DNA of 64,000 nucleotides, taken from the NCBI RefSeq assembly GCF_004099695.1, contig NZ_SCHL01000001.1, positions 1-64,000 on the forward strand, given 5' to 3'. The notes below the pieces were generated by a model. It did no database searches, was not told the DNA's origin, and saw nothing but the letters and a program-made list of their open reading frames with translations. Origin of the DNA: Methanosarcina sp. MSH10X1. Its GTDB lineage: Archaea > Halobacteriota > Methanosarcinia > Methanosarcinales > Methanosarcinaceae. The position numbers and the translations under genes were made by a program. Below are positions 1,823-26,731 of this stretch, one piece after another (position 1 is the first letter of the stretch; every line of letters starts with the position of its first letter).

Positions 1823-3376
1823 GTGTTTAATGCTATTGACAATAGAAGCGAAAAGTCCGACTCTTGCTGCTCTGATGCTGCCGACAAATACAGGCAGGCT
1901 TACGTGAACAGAGAGGAGTACCTCACATCGTCAGGAAAAATGTACACTTCAAGTGATTCTGCCCGGTACATTGCGAAAAATGAGGCTTATAACAGGCTGA
2001 TAGAAGACATCGACAGAAAAAATCGTAAACTGGACTCGGATCTCAATGCTTACATTCTTAAAGCTCTGGAGAAGAAAGGCATTGATACCAGTTCGTTTGA
2101 CAGTGTAACCTCAGGCCCTATGACTCTTTTCAATAATCCGGCAGTGGAAAGGGCTGCTTCAGCTCTAGGAGAGAATATGGGCATAATCTCCACTATGACT
2201 GTTACCGGTCAGCCGGAAAGCAAATACAACTGGACAGAAAACCTGACGCTGATCGTTGATCAGAAACCCAACTATCTTTATCATGATCCTGATTTCGACC
2301 TCAGGAAAGAGTACGAATTAAAAGATCCAAAAGGAAAAACGATTTATCCTTTGGGCGTCAGAAATACCTGTATTTTCACAACAGGTATCTCCGATGAAAT
2401 TGCAGACGGTATTTCCTCAAGTAATGAATATGTAAAAACCGAAACCTCTCAGCAAATCAGCCAGAGCATTTCCAACCTGAACACAGAAGTTTTCCTGCTT
2501 GAGCAGGATCTCAGCGAACAGAGTGTCTCCATGGATACCGCACTTCTTGATACTGAAATATCGAATCTGAAAAATACATACGCTCAGGAAATGAGAATTC
2601 AAATTCCCGAAAAAGTAGCTGATGAAATAAGTTCAAATCCTGTTGTCTCGGGCTGGATTAAAGAGAGTCGGATTAGAGAAGTAACGACGAATTATTTGAC
2701 CAGTCTTTCTGACGATAATATAATCCAAAAGTCCACCGCGGACGAGCTTTCAACTGAAATTTCTTCCATTATCAAAACTGAAATTCGAAATTCAAATCCA
2801 TCGGTTGGATCTGATGAGCTCGAAGCTACTCTCAATAGAGTTGATAGTGATGCTAGAATCGGTGTTTCAAATGGAATCTGTGCGACTATGGTAAACAAAG
2901 GTACAGTTATTGATTCTAACTTTGGAAAAATTGATAGTGAACTGAAAAACCTGGCAAATGAAACTATTGACACATATTCTGGTAAAGTTGGAGATAAGGT
3001 TTCAAAAAGGATGGATAGGACGATGGCAGCTGTGCCATCTGGACTGCCGGTATTGCCACCGCATTGGACTTTCACAGTGAATTTGTGGACTTATGAAATT
3101 ATGGGGAAATATCAGACATTTACTGTTATTGATAACGATAATGAAGTTATCCCCAAACCTTACTTTGGACATAAGGGACAGAGATACGTGAGAAAACTGG
3201 AACCTGTTACCCTTAACGGAAGTTATCTAGGCGAGAATAAGCCAATTACTTTTAGGTTCAGTGGCTACTCTGCTACTATTGTTGGTCCAGGTCCAAAGGG
3301 AGTTGGCGATAAAAAAGGTGGTCATACTGAAAAATCAATTGCTTTTGAAGAACTTCTCAACGAGTATGGTGAGTAG
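1823..3376 (+). CDS. Large coiled-coil protein of unknown function, copy 2
   Basis: The 517-residue product is a paralogue of the gene at 1-1185; similarity begins at YNWTENLTLIVDQKPNY and continues to the C-terminus, and much of it is visible at DNA level (positions 1-360 versus about 2225-2590). The only available start is GTG 1823, which has no good Shine-Dalgarno, and the N-terminus (MFNAIDNRSEKSDSCC) has no signal peptide or membrane helix. The 5' end may therefore be a truncation created by the duplication. Long helical stretches alternate with a conserved C-terminal domain containing DNDNEVIPKPYFGHKGQ. Two bases separate it from the secreted-protein gene downstream. Confidence 0.75.
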   Translation: MFNAIDNRSEKSDSCCSDAADKYRQAYVNREEYLTSSGKMYTSSDSARYIAKNEAYNRLIEDIDRKNRKLDSDLNAYILKALEKKGIDTSSFDSVTSGPMTLFNNPAVERAASALGENMGIISTMTVTGQPESKYNWTENLTLIVDQKPNYLYHDPDFDLRKEYELKDPKGKTIYPLGVRNTCIFTTGISDEIADGISSSNEYVKTETSQQISQSISNLNTEVFLLEQDLSEQSVSMDTALLDTEISNLKNTYAQEMRIQIPEKVADEISSNPVVSGWIKESRIREVTTNYLTSLSDDNIIQKSTADELSTEISSIIKTEIRNSNPSVGSDELEATLNRVDSDARIGVSNGICATMVNKGTVIDSNFGKIDSELKNLANETIDTYSGKVGDKVSKRMDRTMAAVPSGLPVLPPHWTFTVNLWTYEIMGKYQTFTVIDNDNEVIPKPYFGHKGQRYVRKLEPVTLNGSYLGENKPITFRFSGYSATIVGPGPKGVGDKKGGHTEKSIAFEELLNEYGE

Positions 3377-4151: not shown

Positions 4152-5233
4152 TTACTTTTTTCTCCCTTCTCTGACCGGATATTTCTTCATTATCTCGCTT
4201 GTTGGTTTTTTTCTTGCCCAGACGCTTTTCCTCATCTTTGGCTTTTCTTCTTCCGCTTTTTCCTCATCGTCTTCATCCAGGTCTATTCCAAGTCTGGAGC
4301 TAACTGAAGCCCTGGCTTTTTTAGCATCGGTATGATCCGGATTGATTCTGAGGGCTCTTTCAAGGGCGCCCAGGGCTTCTACATTTTTATCCAGGGTAGA
4401 GAGAGCCATGCCTTTACAATACCAGGCGTCGGCAAGATTGGGCTTTATCGAAATCGCTTTGCTGCATGCTTCAAGGGCTCGTTTGGATTTGCCGAGCTTG
4501 AGGTGGACAAGGCCTTTTCCTGCCCAGGTCTTTGCATTATCAGGATTTATTTTGAGGGCTGCATCATATGCGATCATTGCTTCCACAGGCCGGCTCAGGC
4601 TGTAAAGGGCAAAGGCTTTGCCCTCCAGGGCTCTTGCAAGATTTGGGTTAAGTTTAAGTGCAGCATCGTAAGCTTTTATTGCATCTTCGTAACTTCCCAG
4701 ACCAGCGAGCACAGAGCCTTTTGCATGCCAGGCGCCTGCAAGCTTCGGGTTGTCGGCAAGGGCTCTTTCAGAGGCAATAAGGGCTTTTTCGTGCTGATTA
4801 GCCTGCAAAGTACTGAGGTTCTAAGGTTCCAGGCTTTATCGCTGTCAGGATTTATTTCGAGCAATCTGTCAAGAGCCTGCAGTGCATCTTCTTCCCTATC
4901 GAGCTGCAGGAGCACAAAACTTTTTTCATAAAGGTAGCCAGGATCATCAGGCTCGATTTCGAGAGCTTTCTCAATTGCTTTAAGGGAAGCCCTGTACATC
5001 CTGTGCCTTAGAAACACTGCCGCCTTACCTGCCCAGGCAGCTGCATCTTCCGGGTTTTTCCCAAGAGCTTTTTCATGGGCCGCAAGGGCTTTACTCAGCC
5101 GGTCATGTGCAGTATCACGAGTCTTATCTATACCTTTTCCGGCTGCTTTGCCCTTCCTGCCTTCTTTTCCTACTTTTTCAGGTAGACCTTTCTGTGCTGT
5201 CCTGTCAGTCTTTCTTTTAGGGTTCTTTTCCAT
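4152..5233 (-). pseudogene. TPR-repeat protein disrupted by one frameshift
   Basis: Reading leftward from ATG 5233, a basic Lys/Gly-rich N-terminus is followed by TPR motifs (A-A-W-A-G-K-A ... A-L-E-I-E-P). Near 4800-4815 the repeat jumps frame: the first frame reads KAWNLRTSVLC and then loses TPR character, while another frame continues QANQHEKALIASERALADNP and carries four more TPRs ending in an acidic tail and a basic C-terminus at 4152. A single base deletion or two-base insertion would explain it. Intact, it would be about 360 residues and act as a protein-interaction scaffold like the TPR proteins at 36-38 kb. Sequence error is the alternative. Confidence 0.75.
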
Positions 5234-7062: not shown

Positions 7063-8025
7063 ATGAGTGAACTGGAGATTCGGGAAGCCGATTTGCTGGA
7101 AGTAACAGTCCTTATGGATAATTATACGGATATATTTCTAATAGAAAGTAATGATGTATGCAGACGACCTCAGATTCCTTTTTTTCCGCAGATACTCTTC
7201 GCCGAGCATGGATTTTCGTGCTTAATCAAAGTCTGCGCCGGGAGTGAGGAACACACCGTATTGATGGATGCAGCAGTTACCCCAGCTTCCCTTTTAAGTA
7301 ACGCAGAGCTTTTAAAAGCTGACCTTGGCAAAGTAGAAGCTATTGCCCTCAGTCATGGGCATCCAGATCATTTTCTCGGACTTGCAGGGCTTTTGAAATT
7401 TGTAAGTGAAAAGCAGAATAAAGAAGTCCCACTTATGCTTCATCCCGATGCCTTTCTTGAGCGCCGGTTTAATATTCCTGCGATCGGGCACTCTGTCACA
7501 ATACCCGCCCTCAATGAAGATATTCTAAAAGAGGCAAGAGCTGATATCATAAAATCCAAAAGAGCTTTTCCAATCGCTAACGGCCTTATCCACACAACCG
7601 GAGAGATTGAGCGTAAAGTCCCATTTGAAAAAGGATTCCCCTGGGCTGAGGCGAAAATTAACGATAACTGGATTCTTGACCCCTTCAGGGACGACCAGGG
7701 GCTTGTGATAAAGCTGAAAGGCAAGGGACTTGTGGTAATCAGCGGCTGTGCCCATGCCGGAATTATCAATACGGTTGAGTATGCAAAGAAAATTACAGGA
7801 ACGGACCAGGTTCATGCCGTGCTTGGAGGCTTCCACCTGACAGGTAGGATCTTTGATCCGATAATCCAGCCTACAATTGACAAAATGAAAAAGATAAAGC
7901 CTGAGTATGTCGTACCCATGCACTGCACGGGCTGGAAAGCCATAAACCGGTTTGAAGAAGCCATGCCTGAACAATTCCTGCTCAATACGGTCGGCACAAA
8001 GTACGTGTTTGAAGGAACGCCCTGA
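7063..8025 (+). CDS. MBL-fold metallo-hydrolase, dihydropterin-phosphate synthase-like
   Basis: The 320-residue product carries the metallo-beta-lactamase motif S-H-G-H-P-D-H (HxHxDH), a later SGCAHAGI motif and a C-terminal PMHCTGW, the pattern of the family annotated 7,8-dihydropterin-6-methyl-4-(beta-D-ribofuranosyl)aminobenzene-5'-phosphate synthase (tetrahydromethanopterin-related). The fold and metal-binding assignment are firm; the substrate is inferred. I prefer ATG 7063 (MSELEIREADLLEVTVLMDN), preceded by AGGGTGG at proper spacing, over the in-frame TTG 7000 or ATG 7024. A bidentate zinc or iron centre is expected. No operon partner is visible. Confidence 0.85.
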   Translation: MSELEIREADLLEVTVLMDNYTDIFLIESNDVCRRPQIPFFPQILFAEHGFSCLIKVCAGSEEHTVLMDAAVTPASLLSNAELLKADLGKVEAIALSHGHPDHFLGLAGLLKFVSEKQNKEVPLMLHPDAFLERRFNIPAIGHSVTIPALNEDILKEARADIIKSKRAFPIANGLIHTTGEIERKVPFEKGFPWAEAKINDNWILDPFRDDQGLVIKLKGKGLVVISGCAHAGIINTVEYAKKITGTDQVHAVLGGFHLTGRIFDPIIQPTIDKMKKIKPEYVVPMHCTGWKAINRFEEAMPEQFLLNTVGTKYVFEGTP

Positions 8026-8491
8026 AAGAGAATGAAATGCGCAAAATCCAGACTTTAACTTCAGCAGTTAATGTCGGATAACTTTTCAGCCGTTACTGGA
8101 GAATTAAAGTATCAATTAATCAGCAGTATGGAATGGGTTCAGGCTGCCCTTTGATAGGGAATACTGTCGGCATTCAGGATTCTGTATGCTTTCTTTTTCA
8201 TATTGAGTCCAACTGTGTGCTCCCGAATTCATCCAATGTTTGAGCGGAACAGATTCCCTTCTCCACATTGCATTTTCTTATGTTTATATTTTTTAAATCC
8301 AGACCTGATTCAAATACCCGGTCAACATACTCTGTCAACTATTTTCTGTCGATTACTTATTGCCGGATTTATTCCACATAATTTAAAAATAGATATCTGG
8401 TTTGCTTAAGAAGATATTCAATATATTTAATATAAAGTAGCACAAAATCTAACAAAGGTATTAAATATTAGTTAGTAGTATAGTTAAATGT
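8026..8491. other. Intergenic, AT-rich, no gene recognised
   Basis: No ORF here has coding character; the longest (about 8203-8409, plus strand) lacks a ribosome-binding site and reads as random hydrophobic sequence. The right part (8415-8470) has AT-rich TATA-like boxes that may serve the RNA candidate immediately downstream. Confidence 0.4.
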
Positions 8492-17304: not shown

Positions 17305-20283
17305 TTACGAATAAGTAAGCGAAAATAAAGTATCCAACACGGCACGCTTAAAGGATTCGTTGTCGCTAAACTGCTTGAAGAATTCAGTCTCAACGCTCAT
17401 TCGGGCAATTGCTGCACGCTGGGCAGCCTTGTCGTGCTCTATACGAGCGTTTTGTTTATCCGAGTTTTTTCGGGCATTCTGGTATGCGACATCAGCCAGC
17501 ACTGCTGCCGGGAGCTCTTCAGTTATCAGACGAACAATTCGGTCGGCATCAGTCCAGGGGATGCCGCCAAACTGGTCATTAAAACTCCTGATAATATTGC
17601 TGAGCCGGTCCAGCTCTGGTTCAGGCTTAAGTCCACTTCCGCTTGCAGGGACAGGTTCGATTTCGGCATCCGAATCCGGAAGCTGGATCTTCACTACAGC
17701 CTGTTTTTCAACCCTATAACTGTCCATGTCTATGGCTTCGAGAATGCCTTTCGAAAGGTCTTCTTCGATAGGAGCTGGCAATTTGGGAACCAGAAAGTTA
17801 AGGAATATTGATAGTTTTTCCCATTCGGCATCCGTATATGGAAGGACCGAAGCAAGAAAGCCATAGGTACGGTTGAAAGCTTTTGCTTTGCTTTTGAAGT
17901 CGACCTGTCCGTCTTCATCAAGCTGGTCTTTATAAGTGGCTACACAGGCATCAAGAATGGGATCGAGTTTATCACGATCAGAGCCGCTGAGGTAAAGCTC
18001 AACCAACTGTTCTATGTCCTCAAGCGCATAGACCTGGTAGCTGTCAAGGTCGGACTTGAGATCGTGTAGTTTGTTGGGGTCAGTCTCATCGCTCAGGATT
18101 GTCGTGCGGTAGTAATCCGAAAAAGCCATCTGGATTATATCAGTGTTATTCAGGAAGTCAAGCACAAAAACGTCGTGTTTCTGGGGATGTGCCCGGTTAA
18201 GCCTTGAAAGGGTCTGAACAGCCTTGATGCCAGCCAATACCTTATCCACATACATCGTATGCAGGAGCGGCTCGTCATAGCCGGTCTGGAATTTGTCGGC
18301 ACAGATGAGGAACCTGTAGGGATCTTCTTTGATCTTCTCTTCAATCTGATTTGATGGAAAGCTATTGAGCGAGGCCTCGGTAACTTTTACGCCACCATAT
18401 TCACGCTCTCCCGAAAAAGCGACAATTGCCTTATACTGGCTTTTCCTCTCTATAAGGTAACTGCGGATAGCATGGTAATACTGAATTGCACGGTCTACCC
18501 CGTCCGTAACCACCATTGCCCTTGCCTGCCTCCCAATCTTGTCAAGAGCGATTACCTGCTCATGGAAATGATCGACCATGATCTCAGCTTTGAGCTGGAT
18601 AGCATAGTTATGACCCTCAACATATTTGCGGAGTTTCTTTTTTGCCTTTTTGTTATCGAATTCCGGATCTGCCTCGACAGTTTTTATCAGTTTATAATAA
18701 CTGTTTACAGGTGTGTAGGAGCTGAGCACATCGAGAATGAATCCTTCCTGAATCGCCTGCTTCATGGTGTAGCTGTGGAAGGGCTTGTGCTTCACCTGTC
18801 CGTCTTCCTCATAAGGTTCCCCGAAGAGTTCCAGGGTTTTATTCTTGGGAGTTGCGGTAAATGCAAAATAGCTGGCATTTGGAAGCATTTTGCGGGCCTG
18901 CATCCGTTTTTCCAGTGCATCGTTTATGGTATCTTCTGGATCAAAAAGAGCTTGATTCATTGCTGCCGATGTGCGTCCCCCCTGGCTGGAGTGAGCCTCA
19001 TCGATTATGATTGCGAATTTCCTGCCACGGTGGTCCGTTCCAATCTCGTCGAGGATAAAGGGGAACTTCTGCACCGTGGAAATGATTATCTTTTTCCCGC
19101 CCTCTATGAATTTCCTGAGGTCGCCTGAGTGTTCGGCATGCCCGACCGTCGAACTAACCTGGGCAAACTGTTTGATTGTGTCGCGGATCTGCTTGTCGAG
19201 AACACGACGGTCGGTAATGACAATAATGGAATCGAATATCTCTTTATCGTCTTTTTTGAGCCCAATTAGCTGGTGTGCAAGCCAGGCAATGGAATTACTT
19301 TTGCCACTGCCAGCCGAGTGCTGGATAAGGTAGCGGTTGCCTGCGCCGTGCTGTCCCGTATGCGTAAGAAGTTTTCTAACTACGTCGAGCTGGTGGTACC
19401 GGGGGAAAATCTGTACTGCCCTGTCCTTTTTCCTTGTTTTCTCGTTTTTATACTCCACTACCTGCGCGTAATTCTCAAGAATGTCGGTGAGTCCTTTCGG
19501 TGTGAGAATACGCTTCCAGAGGTAATCGGTCTTGATGCCGTTCGGATTCGGAGGGTTGCCTGCCCCGTCATTGTAGCCCTGGTTGAAGGGAAGGAACCAG
19601 GAGCTTTTGCCTTTAAGGTGCGTGCAGAATTTTACTTCATGGTCATCCACAGCAAAATGAACTATGCAGCGGCCGAACTGGAAAAGAAGCTCTTTCTGGT
19701 CACGGTCTTCTTGATATTGTTTTACCGCATCCGCTACTGTCTGTTTTGTGAGGCTGTTCTTTAGCTCAAAAGTAGCTACAGGCAGCCCATTGATAAAAAG
19801 TGCAAGGTCGAGGGCAAGCTTTGTTTCATCCCGGCTGTACCTGAGCTGCCTGGTTACGCTGAAACGGTTCAGAGCATTGCGTTCTTCGGCTTTTGTGTTT
19901 CCGGGCGTGGGAGTGCCATAGAAAAGCTCGATGTGGTGAGGCCCGTGCTTTATACCCTTGCGCAGCACGTCGATTATGCCGCGCTTTGTGGTTTCCCCCT
20001 GCAGCCGGAAAAGAAATTTCTGCCGCGTGGGGCTGGAGTTCCCGAGGTCAAGGACTTCTGCAAGTTCGGGCTGAGTGGATTTCAGGAAAGCAGCCAGTTG
20101 AACCAGATCCACCGCATACTCGCGGTTGTAGTCCTGCCAGCGCCCGAGTATCCAGCCGGTCCCTCCGTAAAGAGCACTTGGTTCCCGGCCTGTGTCAGCC
20201 TGTGCAGGAGAAGTTACCGGCTTTCCAGCCATCGCTTCGACGATTAAGGTTTCAAGCCCCTTTTCGGTGGTATCGGTTGTCAA
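17305..20283 (-). CDS. hsdR: Type I restriction enzyme, R (motor/nuclease) subunit
   Basis: The 992-residue product has an N-terminal PD-(D/E)XK-like nuclease region with ATFELKNSLTKQ (about 170, the E-x-K), then superfamily 2 helicase motifs: HSAGSGKSNS (Walker A, about 321), IIIDEAHSS (DEAH, about 428), FAFTATPK, and later GYDEPLLHTMYVDK and TLSRLNRAHP (motifs V and VI). The C-terminus is helical. With HsdM and HsdS it would translocate and cut unmodified DNA. It is the last gene of the leftward operon; 254 bases separate it from the small gene upstream. Intact length is normal for the family. Confidence 0.95.
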   Translation of the reverse strand: MTTDTTEKGLETLIVEAMAGKPVTSPAQADTGREPSALYGGTGWILGRWQDYNREYAVDLVQLAAFLKSTQPELAEVLDLGNSSPTRQKFLFRLQGETTKRGIIDVLRKGIKHGPHHIELFYGTPTPGNTKAEERNALNRFSVTRQLRYSRDETKLALDLALFINGLPVATFELKNSLTKQTVADAVKQYQEDRDQKELLFQFGRCIVHFAVDDHEVKFCTHLKGKSSWFLPFNQGYNDGAGNPPNPNGIKTDYLWKRILTPKGLTDILENYAQVVEYKNEKTRKKDRAVQIFPRYHQLDVVRKLLTHTGQHGAGNRYLIQHSAGSGKSNSIAWLAHQLIGLKKDDKEIFDSIIVITDRRVLDKQIRDTIKQFAQVSSTVGHAEHSGDLRKFIEGGKKIIISTVQKFPFILDEIGTDHRGRKFAIIIDEAHSSQGGRTSAAMNQALFDPEDTINDALEKRMQARKMLPNASYFAFTATPKNKTLELFGEPYEEDGQVKHKPFHSYTMKQAIQEGFILDVLSSYTPVNSYYKLIKTVEADPEFDNKKAKKKLRKYVEGHNYAIQLKAEIMVDHFHEQVIALDKIGRQARAMVVTDGVDRAIQYYHAIRSYLIERKSQYKAIVAFSGEREYGGVKVTEASLNSFPSNQIEEKIKEDPYRFLICADKFQTGYDEPLLHTMYVDKVLAGIKAVQTLSRLNRAHPQKHDVFVLDFLNNTDIIQMAFSDYYRTTILSDETDPNKLHDLKSDLDSYQVYALEDIEQLVELYLSGSDRDKLDPILDACVATYKDQLDEDGQVDFKSKAKAFNRTYGFLASVLPYTDAEWEKLSIFLNFLVPKLPAPIEEDLSKGILEAIDMDSYRVEKQAVVKIQLPDSDAEIEPVPASGSGLKPEPELDRLSNIIRSFNDQFGGIPWTDADRIVRLITEELPAAVLADVAYQNARKNSDKQNARIEHDKAAQRAAIARMSVETEFFKQFSDNESFKRAVLDTLFSLTYS

Positions 20284-20537
20284 GTTTCATAACCCTCTTT
20301 CAAGAATCCCTGATAAGTAACAGGATTTTACCGGTTTCCAGACCGTTTTTAATGCTTTGTGGCATTTATTTAAGGGTTTTCTCTCTTAAAGATTCCTATT
20401 TAAGCGTTTCCAGGCTTCTAATATACCCAAATAAGCTTGAAATTAAGAAATGTTTGATATTAATCAAACAACCATAAAAAATACGTAACAATTCAGATAA
20501 CTTGGAAGGGTCCACACTTATTCAGTAACAAGTAAAA

Positions 20538-20885
20538 TTATTTTATATTTTCCAATACGTCCAACAGTAATAACCTTGCGTCTTTATTAATATTTACAAT
20601 ATAAATATCGCAGTTTTTAGATATATTTAGTATAGATTTCATTAATTCTTGACAAATTGGACTTTTAAGTTCATTATAATAGTTCGTATAAAATTGACAG
20701 TGATCTATTAAACCCAGTCTATAGTTATTTGCTAGCTTATTACTGGGTGAGAGTACAGGGCATTCCACAATCAGTTCATTCTTTACATATGCAGGAATAT
20801 TCCGCATACAAATGAAGAATTTTGCAGATGGATTCTCAACCAGTTTTTCATTTAATCGACTGAAATCAGTTTCTTTAATTACCAT
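20538..20885 (-). CDS. Small hypothetical protein within the type I restriction operon
   Basis: The 115-residue product (MVIKETDFSRLNEKLVENPS) starts at ATG 20885 with GGAGTG seven bases upstream. I do not recognise the family. It has a Lys/Asn-rich AT-biased composition unlike the flanking hsd genes, no membrane helix and no clear catalytic motif; it contains three Cys (C26, C42, C61 by rough count) and ends NINKDARLLLLDVLENIK. It lies between hsdS and hsdR on the same strand, as accessory or anti-restriction/antitoxin genes often do. A cargo insertion is equally possible. Confidence 0.6.
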   Translation of the reverse strand: MVIKETDFSRLNEKLVENPSAKFFICMRNIPAYVKNELIVECPVLSPSNKLANNYRLGLIDHCQFYTNYYNELKSPICQELMKSILNISKNCDIYIVNINKDARLLLLDVLENIK

Positions 20886-21129
20886 TTTTATCCACTCCTA
20901 ATTTAATTTATTTTATCCATAAGTTTGTAATTGTAATTGACATCATCAATTAGATATAGAAACTTTCTCGTGGAAAAAGTTTGGAGCCTTAGAAGGCTGC
21001 CTGAATAGTTACAAAAATACAAAACAAATGATTAAAACCGCGGAAAACGCTGAAAATGCAAAATTAAGGGAATAAAGGCGAATTACTTCGCCTCTTTAAG
21101 GTTTTATCGGCTATAAATTAAGGAAAGGG

Positions 21130-22566
21130 TCACGCAAGAACCTCCTCTTCAAGTTCTCCAGCCTGCTCGTTTTCTATTTCGTTGTTTTCAAGTTCTTCAT
21201 CTTCAGCCAGTGCATCATCGAAAGTTTCAATCTCGTCAGTTTCTTCAGGCAGGTTCGCCGCCGCCTCTCTCACGTCCAGTTTTCCAGTTACAATATCTGC
21301 TATCAGGCGGGTGCGATATTCGTGGAGAAGGGAGATTTCTCTTTGGGCTAATTCTATTGGTTTATTTAACTTAGAAAGACTGGCATCAAGAGAAGAGACA
21401 ATCAAGTCCTGTTCATTTCTCGGAGGAACAACAACTAAGAGTGATTTGATCTCGCTGACATTAATTCGATGGAACGTCGATCCTATGAGAACAAGTGATA
21501 ACTGTTGCTGCATTGCAGGGCTTCGCATAAAGTAATTCAGAAACCGCCCGTTTTCAGTCTCAGATCGAATCAAGCACACATCCTGACCCATGGCGAAAGT
21601 CTCATCACTCGTGACGAATGCACATGCACCCACGCTCACATTCCTGCAATATATAAGGTCACCTTTCTTAGGTTGTCGACCACCATTGATCAGATGAGCA
21701 TACCATTCTTTGTTTGTTCGCTTCGATGTAGAAAGATTGAGGTCGAAGCTCTGTACTTCGCGAACACTTGCAAGAGGAATTCCTTCATCCACGAAAGGAA
21801 CTGTTACATGTTTACAGTCAACAACTTCCCAGTAACGGCGAAGTGCAACTACATCCCAATGCTCCGGCACTTCCCCCAACCATTCCACCCCCGACGGCTT
21901 GAGCTTAACGTTAGGATCGAGCCCACGGGTGACGGCTTGATGGATAATTGCTTGCTTCTGATCCTCCAGTAGCTTGATAAGTTTCTTTTTTGCACGGATA
22001 TAGTGCCGGATGCGCCGGTCGATATGATCGAGGTAGTGGACGATAACGGATTGCTCATCCTTTGGCGGAAGTGAACAATAGATCATCTTAAAATGTTCGG
22101 GCCTCAAACTCCATTGGTCAGAAGTAATGCCGTAAGACCAGCGTTCGGCCTCTTTAGCAAAGTCAGGTGTTCGGAGAAGATAGTGGGAATAGTTAGGATT
22201 TTGTGCACCTCTCGGACGGACTACCACGTAGGCAGGACTTACAATTCCTCTATATCTGGAAACTCCGATAGCCCCCTGCCATGCACGCATCTTGTTATAA
22301 GCAATGTCCCCAGGCTTAACGAGTTTGTATTTAGTCTTGTCTTCATTAGAAGAGTCTTTTTTTGAGCTATTGGTGAGTAAATCGGTTTGTTGAATTACGC
22401 CCTGTGAAATGGTTACTGATAATAGCTGCTCTTCAGGATAATCTCGTTCTTTTACTTCTTCGAAAAGGGCACGGTTAGGAAGAACTTCCCAATGCTCCGG
22501 CACCTCTCCCAGCCAGGGAACACCGGAATCTTTGTATGCAGGGTAGGGTTTGAGGTTATGAAGCAT
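21130..22566 (-). CDS. hsdS: Type I restriction enzyme, specificity subunit
   Basis: The 478-residue product has two target-recognition halves. Each begins with the same signature: YPAYKDSGVPWLGEVPEHWE near the N-terminus and GVEWLGEVPEHWDVVALRRY in the middle (about 228). Conserved helical spacers follow each half (LEDQKQAIIHQAVTRG and the C-terminal LLHEYRTRLIADIVTGKLDVREAA). The C-terminal ~45 residues are very acidic (EEDE-rich). It sets the bipartite DNA target of the complex. Its ATG 22566 overlaps the end of the DUF1016 gene by 11 bases. Both recognition domains appear intact. Confidence 0.93.
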   Translation of the reverse strand: MLHNLKPYPAYKDSGVPWLGEVPEHWEVLPNRALFEEVKERDYPEEQLLSVTISQGVIQQTDLLTNSSKKDSSNEDKTKYKLVKPGDIAYNKMRAWQGAIGVSRYRGIVSPAYVVVRPRGAQNPNYSHYLLRTPDFAKEAERWSYGITSDQWSLRPEHFKMIYCSLPPKDEQSVIVHYLDHIDRRIRHYIRAKKKLIKLLEDQKQAIIHQAVTRGLDPNVKLKPSGVEWLGEVPEHWDVVALRRYWEVVDCKHVTVPFVDEGIPLASVREVQSFDLNLSTSKRTNKEWYAHLINGGRQPKKGDLIYCRNVSVGACAFVTSDETFAMGQDVCLIRSETENGRFLNYFMRSPAMQQQLSLVLIGSTFHRINVSEIKSLLVVVPPRNEQDLIVSSLDASLSKLNKPIELAQREISLLHEYRTRLIADIVTGKLDVREAAANLPEETDEIETFDDALAEDEELENNEIENEQAGELEEEVLA

Positions 22567-23617
22567 TGTAAACCCCCTTTGCCTCGTGCAGGGTGTAAAA
22601 CTCGTGAAGTTTGGCCCGGAGAAGCTTTCTGTCCGGCAGGCGAGTCTGGTATTCAGAAACTAAAGCAGGGGAAAGAGTACGGCTAAGGGCGTATTCGACC
22701 ACCTCGACATCTCTGGTGGCGCAGAGTAGAAGTCCTATACTGGGCTGCTCATGAGGTTTCTTCACATTGCGGTCCAGAGCCTCCAGATAAAATTCAAGTT
22801 TGCCCAGATATTCAGGCTGGAACTCATCGACTTTAAGTTCTATAGCTACCAGACAGTTCAGGCTGCGGTGAAAAAACAGCAGATCGAGGGCAAAGTCACG
22901 GCCTCCTACCTGCAAAGGATATTGTTCTCCTATGAATGCAAAATCTGCTCCGAGTTCAAGCAGAAAACTACGAAGGTTTGCTACAAGTCCCTGCTGTAGA
23001 TCAGCTTCGGAATGCTTTTCTGGCAGGTCAAGGAAATCAAGAAGATAGGCATCCTTGAAAACAAAACTCATATCTGGATGCAATTGTTTCAGTGCCGCTG
23101 ATGCTTTTGGAGGAGAGAGAACAGCCTGTTCAAAGAGTGCACCTGCAAGCTGCCTTTCCAGTTCGCGTTTCGTCCACCGCTCACGCAGACACATATGCAG
23201 ATAGAATAAACGCTCTTCAGGCTGCTTGCAACGACTCATAATCAGGAGGTTGTGCGTCCAGGGTAATTGTCTCACCAGTGGTGAGACTTTTTCATCGTGG
23301 CGGTAAGTCTCGTAAAACTGCCTCATCCGAAAGAGGTTTGGCCTTGTAAATCCCCGAATATCCGGATAATAAGTGGCAATATGTCCGGCAAGCTGGTTAA
23401 CAACGCCCTCGCCCCATTCCGCAGTCTGTAATTTACGGCTTATATATTCGCCCACCTGCCAGTAGAGATCAATCAGAGCTTTATTGGCAGCGGTAAACGC
23501 CCCCTTGCGAGCATTCTGGATAAGCTCTACCACTTCTTCAAAGGCATTTTCGTCAAACTCTGTAGAAACATCATGAGAAGTTCTTGCAATTTCTTGTGGT
23601 GATTTAAGCCGCTTCAT
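22556..23617 (-). CDS. DUF1016/YhcG-type PD-(D/E)XK nuclease
   Basis: The 353-residue product has the DUF1016 N-terminal helical domain (about 25-190; ALIDLYWQVGEYISRKLQ, FTRPNLFRMRQFYETY, LPWTHNLLIMSR) and a C-terminal nuclease domain with GGRDFALDLLFFH and LVAIELKVDEFQPEYLGKL, which supply the D and E-x-K. Such proteins commonly sit inside type I restriction operons, often next to hsdS; their precise role is unclear. The start ATG overlaps the stop of the mini-ORF upstream (ATGA), and the 3' end overlaps hsdS, so translation is coupled along the operon. Confidence 0.9.
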   Translation of the reverse strand: MKRLKSPQEIARTSHDVSTEFDENAFEEVVELIQNARKGAFTAANKALIDLYWQVGEYISRKLQTAEWGEGVVNQLAGHIATYYPDIRGFTRPNLFRMRQFYETYRHDEKVSPLVRQLPWTHNLLIMSRCKQPEERLFYLHMCLRERWTKRELERQLAGALFEQAVLSPPKASAALKQLHPDMSFVFKDAYLLDFLDLPEKHSEADLQQGLVANLRSFLLELGADFAFIGEQYPLQVGGRDFALDLLFFHRSLNCLVAIELKVDEFQPEYLGKLEFYLEALDRNVKKPHEQPSIGLLLCATRDVEVVEYALSRTLSPALVSEYQTRLPDRKLLRAKLHEFYTLHEAKGVYNAS

Positions 23618-23724
23618 TTTTCACCTTTCCTTATTTTCAGTTCTATAAAGCCATTAAATACCATGCTCGCCGGAGACACATCAGAATCTTTGTATGCGGG
23701 GTAGGGCTTGAGGTCGTGAATCAT
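23614..23724 (-). CDS. 36-residue mini-ORF: hsdS 5' fragment between two coupled genes
   Basis: This short frame starts at ATG 23724, overlapping the GIY-YIG stop (ATGA), and ends in TGA overlapping the DUF1016 ATG (again ATGA). Its first 14 residues, MIHDLKPYPAYKDS, nearly match the HsdS start (MLHNLKPYPAYKDS); after that the sequence diverges (DVSPASMVFNGFIELKIRKGEK). It is most simply the 5' stub of the original hsdS left when the DUF1016 gene was inserted and the hsdS start was duplicated downstream. It may now serve to pass ribosomes from the GIY-YIG gene to DUF1016. Whether the peptide itself has a role is unknown. Confidence 0.65.
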   Translation of the reverse strand: MIHDLKPYPAYKDSDVSPASMVFNGFIELKIRKGEK

Positions 23725-24590
23725 TTGTCCACCTCAGCTTCCTGAATGGATCTTAGTGTATGTCCGTCAGCAGTTTTCCACTCCGTACGGCCGTTTGCCG
23801 CCCTTCCGAGAATTACACCTGCTGCTGTTGAGGGGGTATTAAAAGTATAGTCCTGTATCACTTCATAGTACTGGCTGCGGTCAATAAAAACGCCCTGTTC
23901 AACCAGTGAGCGACGCATCTCACTCAGATATGCGTGAATTGACTTAGTCTCGCTCTTAACTGCCTGTGAACCTGCCCGCACGACAAAACCCGTGGTTGCC
24001 TCGTAACCTTTGCTCTTTATACCTTTAGCATTCAACACGAATTCGAGAGTTCTCTGCGTGGGCGCGGGTGCTGCTTCAAAAAACCCATATCCCAATACTG
24101 GCAGGCAGAGCAGGACATCTGCAAGAAAGCCTTCAGCTTCGGCAATATCCGCTTCTGACAGAGACGGAGGCTGTGGCGTGTTAGCATTGTCGAGCACACA
24201 TCTCTTTGCAGCCTTTGCAAAATCAATAAGCTTGTACTCAAGAAACTGGATGTGTGCTTTATTCAGGTTCTGATCCTTACTTGTGAAGCCAATCGCCTGT
24301 GTCCAAAAGTCTTTGTTTTTCGCATGCTGGTCAAGCCTCGGGCCGATCGGGTCGCCTTCGCCGACATAGACGCGGGGAAGCTGAGACTTTTCATCGGGGC
24401 CAATCAAAATATATACACCTGTGCATCCCAGTTCAGGGCGGGACCGGGTCTCGGCAAACAATGATCTCGGAATTACCAGCCCTCTGCCTGTCCAGTTTGA
24501 CTTCTCCACAGTCTTGACGCCGTCCGGATCGCCGCCCGGAAGAAAGAGGCGCACAGAGAATCCCCTGGGTCTTTCCCTGCAATTGATCAT
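23721..24590 (-). CDS. GIY-YIG nuclease with C-terminal DUF4357
   Basis: The 289-residue product has a GIY-YIG core at about residues 38-125: GVYILIG ... RVYVGEGD ... PRLDQH, with FLEYKLIDFA supplying the conserved Glu. The C-terminal part ends in DUF4357 (TFNTPSTAAGVILGRAANGRTEWK), a small domain often attached to nucleases and methylases of defence systems. Residues 1-35 are an arginine-rich lead. ATG 24590 shares one base with the hsdM stop (TAATG). It probably adds a nuclease or specificity factor to the restriction operon; its substrate is not known. Confidence 0.88.
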   Translation of the reverse strand: MINCRERPRGFSVRLFLPGGDPDGVKTVEKSNWTGRGLVIPRSLFAETRSRPELGCTGVYILIGPDEKSQLPRVYVGEGDPIGPRLDQHAKNKDFWTQAIGFTSKDQNLNKAHIQFLEYKLIDFAKAAKRCVLDNANTPQPPSLSEADIAEAEGFLADVLLCLPVLGYGFFEAAPAPTQRTLEFVLNAKGIKSKGYEATTGFVVRAGSQAVKSETKSIHAYLSEMRRSLVEQGVFIDRSQYYEVIQDYTFNTPSTAAGVILGRAANGRTEWKTADGHTLRSIQEAEVDK

Positions 24591-26731
24591 TATTCACCCC
24601 TCCCTATGATCTCATCCAGTAGCCCATCAGTCTCTTTTTCCAGTGCCAGAATGTCTGCTCGGATTTCCTCAAGCGAGCGCAGCGGCTGCGGTTTGTAAAA
24701 GTAGCGGGTGAAACTTATCTCGTATCCGGTTTTGATGCTGCTCTCGTCGATCCAGGCGTCTCCAGCGTAGGGAAGCACTTCGCGCTGGATAAAAGCCTCT
24801 ATGCCTCCTTTCTCCAGAAGAGGCACCTGCTCAGTATCGCGAAGCTCAGTATCAGGCTCATATTCTACCACGCAGAGTTTGCCGTCCATAGTGGTTTCAA
24901 ACCGGCCGTGCAGAGGATCGGCTTCAGCTTTTCCCGGTTTATAAACCTTTTTGATAACAGGTACAGCTGACTCGTCTTTCCGGGCAAGGCTGTTCTGGAG
25001 GAGTTTGAGCCGTTTGGCGGTGAGTTTGACTCCGGCTCTGCTCGCAAGAGCCTCGAAAGAAGAAAGGAAAGTATTGAAATCATTATGCGGACCTGGACCG
25101 AGATCAACTGGAGCCGTATCGATAAGTGTGGCAAGCTGCTCTTCTTTGGCCTCCATACAGGCTTTTCTGAAATTGGCGGTCGCATCCGGCGTGAGGTCAA
25201 CAACAAGGCGTAATGGCCTTTCCACTGTCACTTTCCAGTATCCAAAAGCAGCGTTAGGGAAGATTTTTGACTGCTCGGATTCCTCAAAAACAAGGAAGGT
25301 TTCACAGATTTTCCGGATATCCTCATCGGACAGCTCACAATTTTTCTTACCCAAATTCTTGCGCAGAGGTCTGTACCATTGTGTTGCATCGATAAGCTGA
25401 ACCTTGCCCTGTCGGTGTTCTGGCTTGCGGTTTGTGAGCACCCAGATGTAGGTCGCAATGCCGGTGTTGTAAAACATATTCAGAGGCAGGGCAACAATAG
25501 CTTCCAGCCAGTCGTTTTCAATGATCCGCCTGCGGATATTGCTCTCACCCTGACCTGCATCGCCAGTAAAGAGCGAAGAACCATTGTGAACTTCGGCAAT
25601 CCGGCTTCCGAGTTTGGTATCATGCTTCATTTTCGAAAGCATGTTGACCAGAAATAGCATCTGCCCATCGCTGGAACGTGTCAGCAATGAGTATTCCGGG
25701 TCGCCTTTATGCTCTGTAACAAAACGCGGGTCTTTAATGCCATCTTTTCCACCCATCCTCTCAAGATCGCTCTTCCAGCTCTTACCATAAGGCGGGTTTG
25801 AAAGCATAAAATCGAACTCATGTGCTGGAAAAGCGTCGTTAGCGAGGGTCGAATATTCAGGTCCCCCAACAAGGTTGTCTGCTGCGTCGCCCTCGCCCTT
25901 AAGAAGAAAATCGGCTTTGGCAATTGCATAGGTCTCAGCGTTGATCTCCTGGCCGTAAAGGTGAGTTGCAACCTGCTTTTCATTCTCCTCTGCAAGCTGC
26001 TTCAGTTCTTCCTCAGCCACGGTCAGCATGCCGCCGGTTCCGCACGCACCGTCATAGAGCAGGTATGTGCCTGATTCGATCCGGTCGGCTACGGGAAGGA
26101 AGATAAGCCGTGCCATGAGCTTTACAGCATCGCGTGGAGTCCAGTGCTCGCCAGCCTCTTCATTATTTTCTTCGTTGAAGCGCCTTATAAGCTCTTCAAA
26201 AACCGTACCCATACCGTGGTTATCAAGACCAGGGAGCTTTATCGAACCATCGCCGTTTATAACCGGATTCGGGCTAAGGTTTAGAGAAGGGTCAAGGAAT
26301 TTTTCGATTACTTTACCGAGTGCATCAGCTTTAGAAAGGCGTGGAATCTGATTTCGGAATTCAAAATTATCAAGAATATCCTGTACGTTAGGAGAAAAAC
26401 CATCAAGATAAGCTTCGAAGTCGGCTTTTAGCTGCTGCTGGCTTGCTCGGGAACGCAGATCATTCAGGGTGAATTGTGATGTGTTATAGAAAGCCTGCCC
26501 TGCAGCCTGGCGTAATGGTTGATCCTGGTTTTTTATGTCTGCCCTGTCGAGAGCTACTTTCATATCGAGAACAGCTTGTTTTGTAGGTTCAAGCACCGCA
26601 TCCAAACGTCTCAGGACAGTCATCGGTAGGATTACATCACGATACTTGCCACGAACATAGAGGTCTCGCAGCACATCATCTGCAATTCCCCAGATGAAGT
26701 TAGTTATCCAGTTTAAGTTGTTTTCAATCAT
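24590..26731 (-). CDS. hsdM: Type I restriction enzyme, N6-adenine methylase subunit
   Basis: The 713-residue product has an N-terminal HsdM helical domain (about 1-165; NFIWGIADDVLRDLYVRGKY) and a Rossmann methylase domain with YDGACGTGGM (SAM motif I, about 227) and LSNPPYGKSW (catalytic NPPY, about 312). A long C-terminal region with LRDTEQVPLLEKGGI and SFTRYFYKPQPLRSLEEI contacts other subunits in the family. It is longer than the ~500-residue E. coli type, as in many archaeal and bacterial relatives. It heads the leftward operon; an AT-rich promoter must lie in 26732-26800. Confidence 0.95.
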   Translation of the reverse strand: MIENNLNWITNFIWGIADDVLRDLYVRGKYRDVILPMTVLRRLDAVLEPTKQAVLDMKVALDRADIKNQDQPLRQAAGQAFYNTSQFTLNDLRSRASQQQLKADFEAYLDGFSPNVQDILDNFEFRNQIPRLSKADALGKVIEKFLDPSLNLSPNPVINGDGSIKLPGLDNHGMGTVFEELIRRFNEENNEEAGEHWTPRDAVKLMARLIFLPVADRIESGTYLLYDGACGTGGMLTVAEEELKQLAEENEKQVATHLYGQEINAETYAIAKADFLLKGEGDAADNLVGGPEYSTLANDAFPAHEFDFMLSNPPYGKSWKSDLERMGGKDGIKDPRFVTEHKGDPEYSLLTRSSDGQMLFLVNMLSKMKHDTKLGSRIAEVHNGSSLFTGDAGQGESNIRRRIIENDWLEAIVALPLNMFYNTGIATYIWVLTNRKPEHRQGKVQLIDATQWYRPLRKNLGKKNCELSDEDIRKICETFLVFEESEQSKIFPNAAFGYWKVTVERPLRLVVDLTPDATANFRKACMEAKEEQLATLIDTAPVDLGPGPHNDFNTFLSSFEALASRAGVKLTAKRLKLLQNSLARKDESAVPVIKKVYKPGKAEADPLHGRFETTMDGKLCVVEYEPDTELRDTEQVPLLEKGGIEAFIQREVLPYAGDAWIDESSIKTGYEISFTRYFYKPQPLRSLEEIRADILALEKETDGLLDEIIGRGE

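Follow-up and report, generated by a model that had tools for sequence, protein, structure and literature searches.

The window, the whole stretch of 64,000 nucleotides that was analysed, comes from a genome identified through its relatives as Methanosarcina. On its minus strand HsdM, HsdS and HsdR are encoded in a single co-directional cluster, a type I restriction-modification operon, in the order hsdM, a GIY-YIG-like gene (GIY below), a 36-codon frame (the stub), a DUF1016 gene, hsdS, an ORF of 115 amino acids and hsdR. The features of the locus are as follows.

24590 to 26731, minus strand: hsdM, type I operon gene
23721 to 24590, minus strand: GIY, a GIY-YIG-like/DUF4357 gene, PADLOC PDC-S14, phage-defence candidate
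23614 to 23724, minus strand: 36-codon stub, MIHDLKPYPAYKDSDVSPASMVFNGFIELKIRKGEK, with an ATGA overlap with each neighbour
23680 to 23724, minus strand: stub head, the left copy of the direct repeat, corresponding to 45 nt at the start of a GIY-adjacent hsdS
23618 to 23679, minus strand: stub tail, not recognisable as hsdS, with an AGGTGA ribosome-binding-like site ahead of DUF1016
22556 to 23617, minus strand: DUF1016/YhcG PDDEXK nuclease gene (PF06250/PF17761), PADLOC PDC-S02, candidate
22504 to 23771, minus strand: block of 1268 nt, 100% identical to genome G009, flanked by an about 85% identical GIY and a diverged hsdS
22520 to 22567, minus strand: right copy of the direct repeat, the actual hsdS start (MLHNLKPYPAYKDSG...)
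21130 to 22566, minus strand: hsdS, type I specificity subunit, with an 11-nt overlap with DUF1016
20258 to 21024, minus strand: second exchanged block, 98.4% identical to G009, in the hsdS/hsdR slot, holding the 115-aa ORF
20538 to 20885, minus strand: 115-aa ORF in the hsdS/hsdR slot, weak DUF488-like match
17305 to 20283, minus strand: hsdR, type I operon gene

The sole Pfam match of GIY is DUF4357 at its C-terminus, and the GIY-YIG-like motif (GVYILIG...VYVGEGDP) was recognised by eye. Both GIY and DUF1016 are non-hsd genes of defence-related families standing amid hsd genes, and the sequence suggests that the locus is a type I restriction operon with embedded candidate defence genes.

The 36-codon frame described by the earlier note is real, with 4-nt overlaps with GIY and DUF1016. 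The statement that its first 14 residues are those of HsdS was slightly overstated, 12 of the 14 being identical (MIHDLKPYPAYKDS against MLHNLKPYPAYKDS). At the nucleotide level the stub and the hsdS start form a direct repeat of 48 nt with 85% identity and a start-to-start spacing of 1158 nt; no terminal inverted repeats were found around the DUF1016 block. The likeness is not due to chance, since a 28-aa query from the hsdS start picks out the stub from the whole source genome with E=5e-5 and none of 20,000 shuffles reached the stub-hsdS identity. The similarity of the stub tail is confined to the other loci with DUF1016a (40/62 to M. spelaei), with no above-chance match in the examined loci other than the four that carry a stub, and the tail probably once served as the 5' leader of DUF1016. 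When the same 28-aa query was run against 112 genomes of the family, short stubs were returned only from G000 and G009, a search for which the stubs of M. spelaei and UBA11020 are too diverged. A short frame in G437 was considered as a further stub and rejected, as it looks like a broken hsdS.

The earlier note had named two kinds of operon to look for in related genomes, those without DUF1016 in which hsdS directly overlaps the GIY stop and other DUF1016 insertions with a similar stub, and both exist. The GIY gene occurs at an identity of at least 85% in six Methanosarcina genomes, the source genome included. In UBA293 (L001/L043) and G024 (L004/L042) hsdS takes the position of the stub, beginning at the GIY stop with an identical ATGA overlap and no DUF1016 in between; the hsdS of G024 contains a stop. 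The other four, the source, G009, M. spelaei (L003/L040) and UBA11020 (L002/L041), each carry the stub together with the same DUF1016, and in all four the stub has 36 codons and overlaps at both ends. The loci of UBA293, UBA11020 and G024 are MAG contigs, and the operons of the latter two are themselves broken; the DUF1016 of UBA11020 is shortened, ending after codon 152. Stub and DUF1016 of G009 are identical to those of the source genome. The stubs of the source and M. spelaei differ at 40 of 108 nt, and the case for their common origin lies in their position, their equal length and the similarity of their tails (40/62).

Comparison of the hsdS starts shows that the two copies of the repeat have different histories. 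The first 45 nt of the stub match the hsdS start of UBA293 at 43 positions, that of G024 at 40 and that of its own operon at only 38. The stub heads of M. spelaei and UBA11020 have drifted, to 27-30/45 against hsdS starts, and are still hsdS-like (0/20,000 shuffles). The hsdS starts that directly follow DUF1016a have a haplotype of their own, GCAAAGGGGG[C/T]TTACAATG...CATAACCTCAAA, which is also present in G016. Because the stub is closer to a GIY-adjacent hsdS than to its own, DUF1016 is flanked by hsdS starts of different ancestry. These comparisons indicate that the stub is a remnant of an earlier hsdS that once adjoined GIY, not a copy of the operon's own hsdS, and that the downstream hsdS start arrived, or was exchanged, together with DUF1016. 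The idea of an hsdS start repeated downstream therefore finds no support as worded, neither start having been copied from the other.

The possibility that this arrangement has moved between species is raised by the block shared with G009, which reaches from 48 nt inside the GIY 3' end (23771) to hsdS codon 21 (22504). Between the source and G009, a distant species, none of the 168 fourfold sites of DUF1016 differ, as against 150/293 in hsdM, 57/132 in GIY and 185/356 in hsdR, that is, 43-52% (Fisher p<=1e-24 for each of the three against DUF1016); in the control gene asnB the count is 85/177. Type I systems are abundant in Methanosarcina and are thought to be often exchanged (PMC10609329). A ready-made stub-DUF1016 block seems to have travelled recently from one Methanosarcina species to another by ordinary homologous recombination, and because 1268 nt are identical to distant G009 while the flanking genes are diverged, the scar was probably not created in the source lineage alone. 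The second block, 98.4% identical to G009, suggests that the slots on either side of hsdS were both exchanged with this one distant species. By asnB, G024 is a closer relative of G009; its order is DUF1016b-GIY-hsdS and it does not have the block, so that G009 would, on parsimony only, most simply be the recipient and the donor window-like. Between M. spelaei and UBA11020 the fourfold differences are 0.38 in GIY, 0.11 in asnB and 0.11 in DUF1016, from which it follows that GIY too was swapped. A dating in which DUF1016 was everywhere younger than GIY was for this reason dropped, asnB showing that the gap between these two genomes reflects a swapped GIY. No near relatives of the full block were found among plasmids and no DUF1016 relatives in viral contigs, from which the exact stub-head string is also absent; nor were echoes of the GIY start or the DUF1016 start found ahead of the second DUF1016 in G009 and G024.

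The place between hsdM and hsdS is variable well beyond these genomes. Among relatives of the source hsdM it is empty in G267 and G291, filled by a DUF262-like gene in G030 (GmrSD-like, named by a look at the sequence only), by other DUF1016 types with no GIY in G002, G008 and, truncated, in G016, and by unrelated ORFs in G198 and G238. In bacterial plasmids it holds a DUF262 gene or small DUF433/DUF5615 PIN-like genes. A Sphaerotilus plasmid has the order DUF1016 (60%), hsdS, hsdR (66%), which suggests that DUF1016 and hsdS are a pre-existing pair. These layouts indicate a core order of hsdM-hsdS-hsdR that includes an exchangeable slot; the DUF1016-hsdS pairing occurs in bacteria too.

We propose, with a probability of about 0.78, that the stub is a recombination scar, left where a GIY-hsdS operon was joined to a segment of leader, DUF1016 and hsdS start, and that the finished block later spread between species. 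The starting operon would have been hsdM-GIY-hsdS, with hsdS beginning on the GIY stop codon as in UBA293 today, and the incoming segment would have carried leader, DUF1016 and hsdS start in this order. One join would have been homologous, in hsdS, while the other, the left one, would have been illegitimate, with its breakpoint near codon 16 of the hsdS already in place, so that about 15-20 codons of the resident start were fused to the DUF1016 leader to give the stub. The downstream hsdS start would have been brought in with DUF1016 and not copied from the stub. Homology-facilitated illegitimate recombination, which has one homologous and one illegitimate end (PMC3240628), would give exactly the order stub, leader, DUF1016, hsdS; here we infer it from its product only. 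Thereafter the finished block would have passed from the operon of one species to that of another through ordinary homologous recombination, anchored in the 3' end of GIY and in the conserved start of hsdS. An operon of the donor type, with the stub-tail leader and DUF1016 and no stub, was not found among the loci examined.

The earlier note had read the stub as the scar of a DUF1016 insertion into the hsdS start, and as dating the operon hsdM-GIY-hsdS-hsdR to before the arrival of DUF1016. The scar, the empty sites and the stub homologs agree with this, and the GIY/hsdS junction does precede the GIY/stub/DUF1016 junction, but the direction of insertion is not fixed by the scar alone, which does not in itself prove DUF1016 to be a latecomer. 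The same final junction would result from a mirror event in which GIY and the first codons of its hsdS entered an hsdM-DUF1016-hsdS-hsdR operon between hsdM and DUF1016, with the homologous end in hsdM, the illegitimate end at the same place and the stub as the last part of the imported GIY piece. The bacterial order DUF1016-hsdS-hsdR of the Sphaerotilus plasmid, the hsdM-DUF1016-hsdS operons of the genus that lack GIY and have DUF1016 of other types (G002, G008 and, truncated, G016) and the swapped GIY of M. spelaei and UBA11020 would all suit such an event. We nevertheless regard it as unlikely, if worth serious attention, and favour DUF1016 as the latecomer, because UBA293 and G024, the only stub-free relatives with the same GIY gene, have GIY-hsdS and because G024 and its relative G009 look like the before and after of DUF1016a entering a GIY-hsdS operon; moreover, no genome of the genus has an intact DUF1016a and lacks GIY. 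The 48-nt direct repeat on both sides of DUF1016 could also recall a transposon-type insertion in which the hsdS start was duplicated as the target site. This is highly improbable, as the copies differ in ancestry (43/45 to the hsdS of another operon against 38/45 to each other) and the block has neither terminal inverted repeats nor a transposase; a target-site duplication was rejected on these grounds, near-identical duplicates also being absent.

The evolution of the stub agrees with the preferred reading, that of a recombination scar. Changed codons between the source and M. spelaei are synonymous and nonsynonymous in a ratio of 4:22 in the stub and 70:34 in DUF1016 (p=3e-6). With 22 of 26 changed codons nonsynonymous there is no sign of purifying selection on the stub, and its frame stays open in 38-47% of neutral simulations with an equal number of changes. 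These comparisons indicate that the stub peptide is evolving neutrally, and a conserved peptide is rejected. The stub is nonetheless probably translated, because the old hsdS ribosome-binding site is kept in the GIY end, where GAGGTGG(A), which serves hsdS in UBA293, lies 5-6 nt before the stub ATG. It could be argued that the stub works as a small gene, whose leader or relay peptide holds ribosomes and couples the translation of GIY to that of DUF1016. All four stub loci have the ATGA overlaps at both ends and GAGGTGG before the stub, its 36 codons have passed through two lineages without indel or stop, and the hsdM and hsdS genes of EcoKI are known to be start-stop coupled (PMC3510504). Against this stand the nonsynonymous changes and the frequency with which the frame stays open by chance; the overlaps are set by the neighbours (GIY ending in K-TGA, DUF1016 starting with ATGA), and in the source locus DUF1016 has its own AGGTGA-like site. 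We therefore consider a functional stub decidedly unlikely. Of the earlier proposal that the frame couples two genes there remains that the overlaps make coupling possible, in a frame free of purifying selection; a variant in which translation as such, whatever the peptide, does the coupling is possible but unsupported.

Accessory defence genes inside type I operons have been described before, as TgvAB/GmrSD in Vibrio cholerae (PMC11411939) and as PrrC embedded in the EcoprrI type I system (PMC12707154). As in those cases, defence-type genes here lie between the hsd genes of one operon, and the DUF262-like gene in the same slot of G030 is a further parallel with TgvAB/GmrSD. Unlike them, the candidates here are, by sequence, GIY/DUF4357 and DUF1016, and the join can be read from a remnant of an hsdS start. 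Type I systems in which hsdS is duplicated shuffle their specificity (PMC7394358), and the present operon resembles them in having more than one hsdS start in a recombining segment. However, the extra piece is of about 16 codons, has no target-recognition domain, is in direct orientation and has no recombinase nearby, for which reasons the stub cannot change specificity. A shuffling, phase-variable hsdS locus was likewise rejected, the homology covering 16 codons only, as a direct repeat, with no recombinase gene in the operon. Searches of the open-access literature on DUF1016, embedded genes and hsdS recombination returned, by title and abstract, no hsdS-start scar of such a sort. Embedded defence genes in type I operons being already known, the scar is a well-documented new example and not a new kind. 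It gives a base-by-base record of the entry of an accessory defence gene, with an empty site, a scarred filled site and a recent block transfer between species, and suggests that conserved gene ends, here the GIY 3' end and the hsdS start, anchor swaps of defence cargo in archaea without transposases. A bolder, rather doubtful extension is that the repeats of the hsdS start are a working part, permitting seamless gain and loss of the DUF1016 cassette by homologous recombination with start-stop overlaps restored. If this were true, type I operons would be exchange docks for defence genes without a mobile-element enzyme.

Several minor observations concern DUF1016 and its surroundings. DUF1016 is cut at the same codon (about 152) in UBA11020 (L041, near 7853-8325) and G016 (L104), with a common junction, TGGACGAAACGCGAG|GCAAAGGGGGCTTACAATG, and upstream parts of different DUF1016 types, which is suggestive of a shared deletion and recombination within DUF1016. 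The DUF1016 of the window contains a perfect palindrome, TCTCACCACTGGTGAGA, at about 23272-23288, coding for the VSPLVRQ stretch, and another DUF1016 type (G016) has similar inverted repeats at the corresponding position. The leaders between hsdM and DUF1016b (L039, about 4378-4669; L105, about 2771-3040; L090, about 2740-2890) have palindromes, for example ATTGTCGTGACACTGTCACGACAAT, and frames like part of a DUF1016 gene (IVVTLSRQLNQIH), which may be the scar left by an earlier DUF1016. In bacterial plasmid relatives of hsdM (L099, 14233-15926; L101, 13981-15682), DUF4433 and macro-domain genes, a DarTG-like pair, lie just 3' of hsdS.
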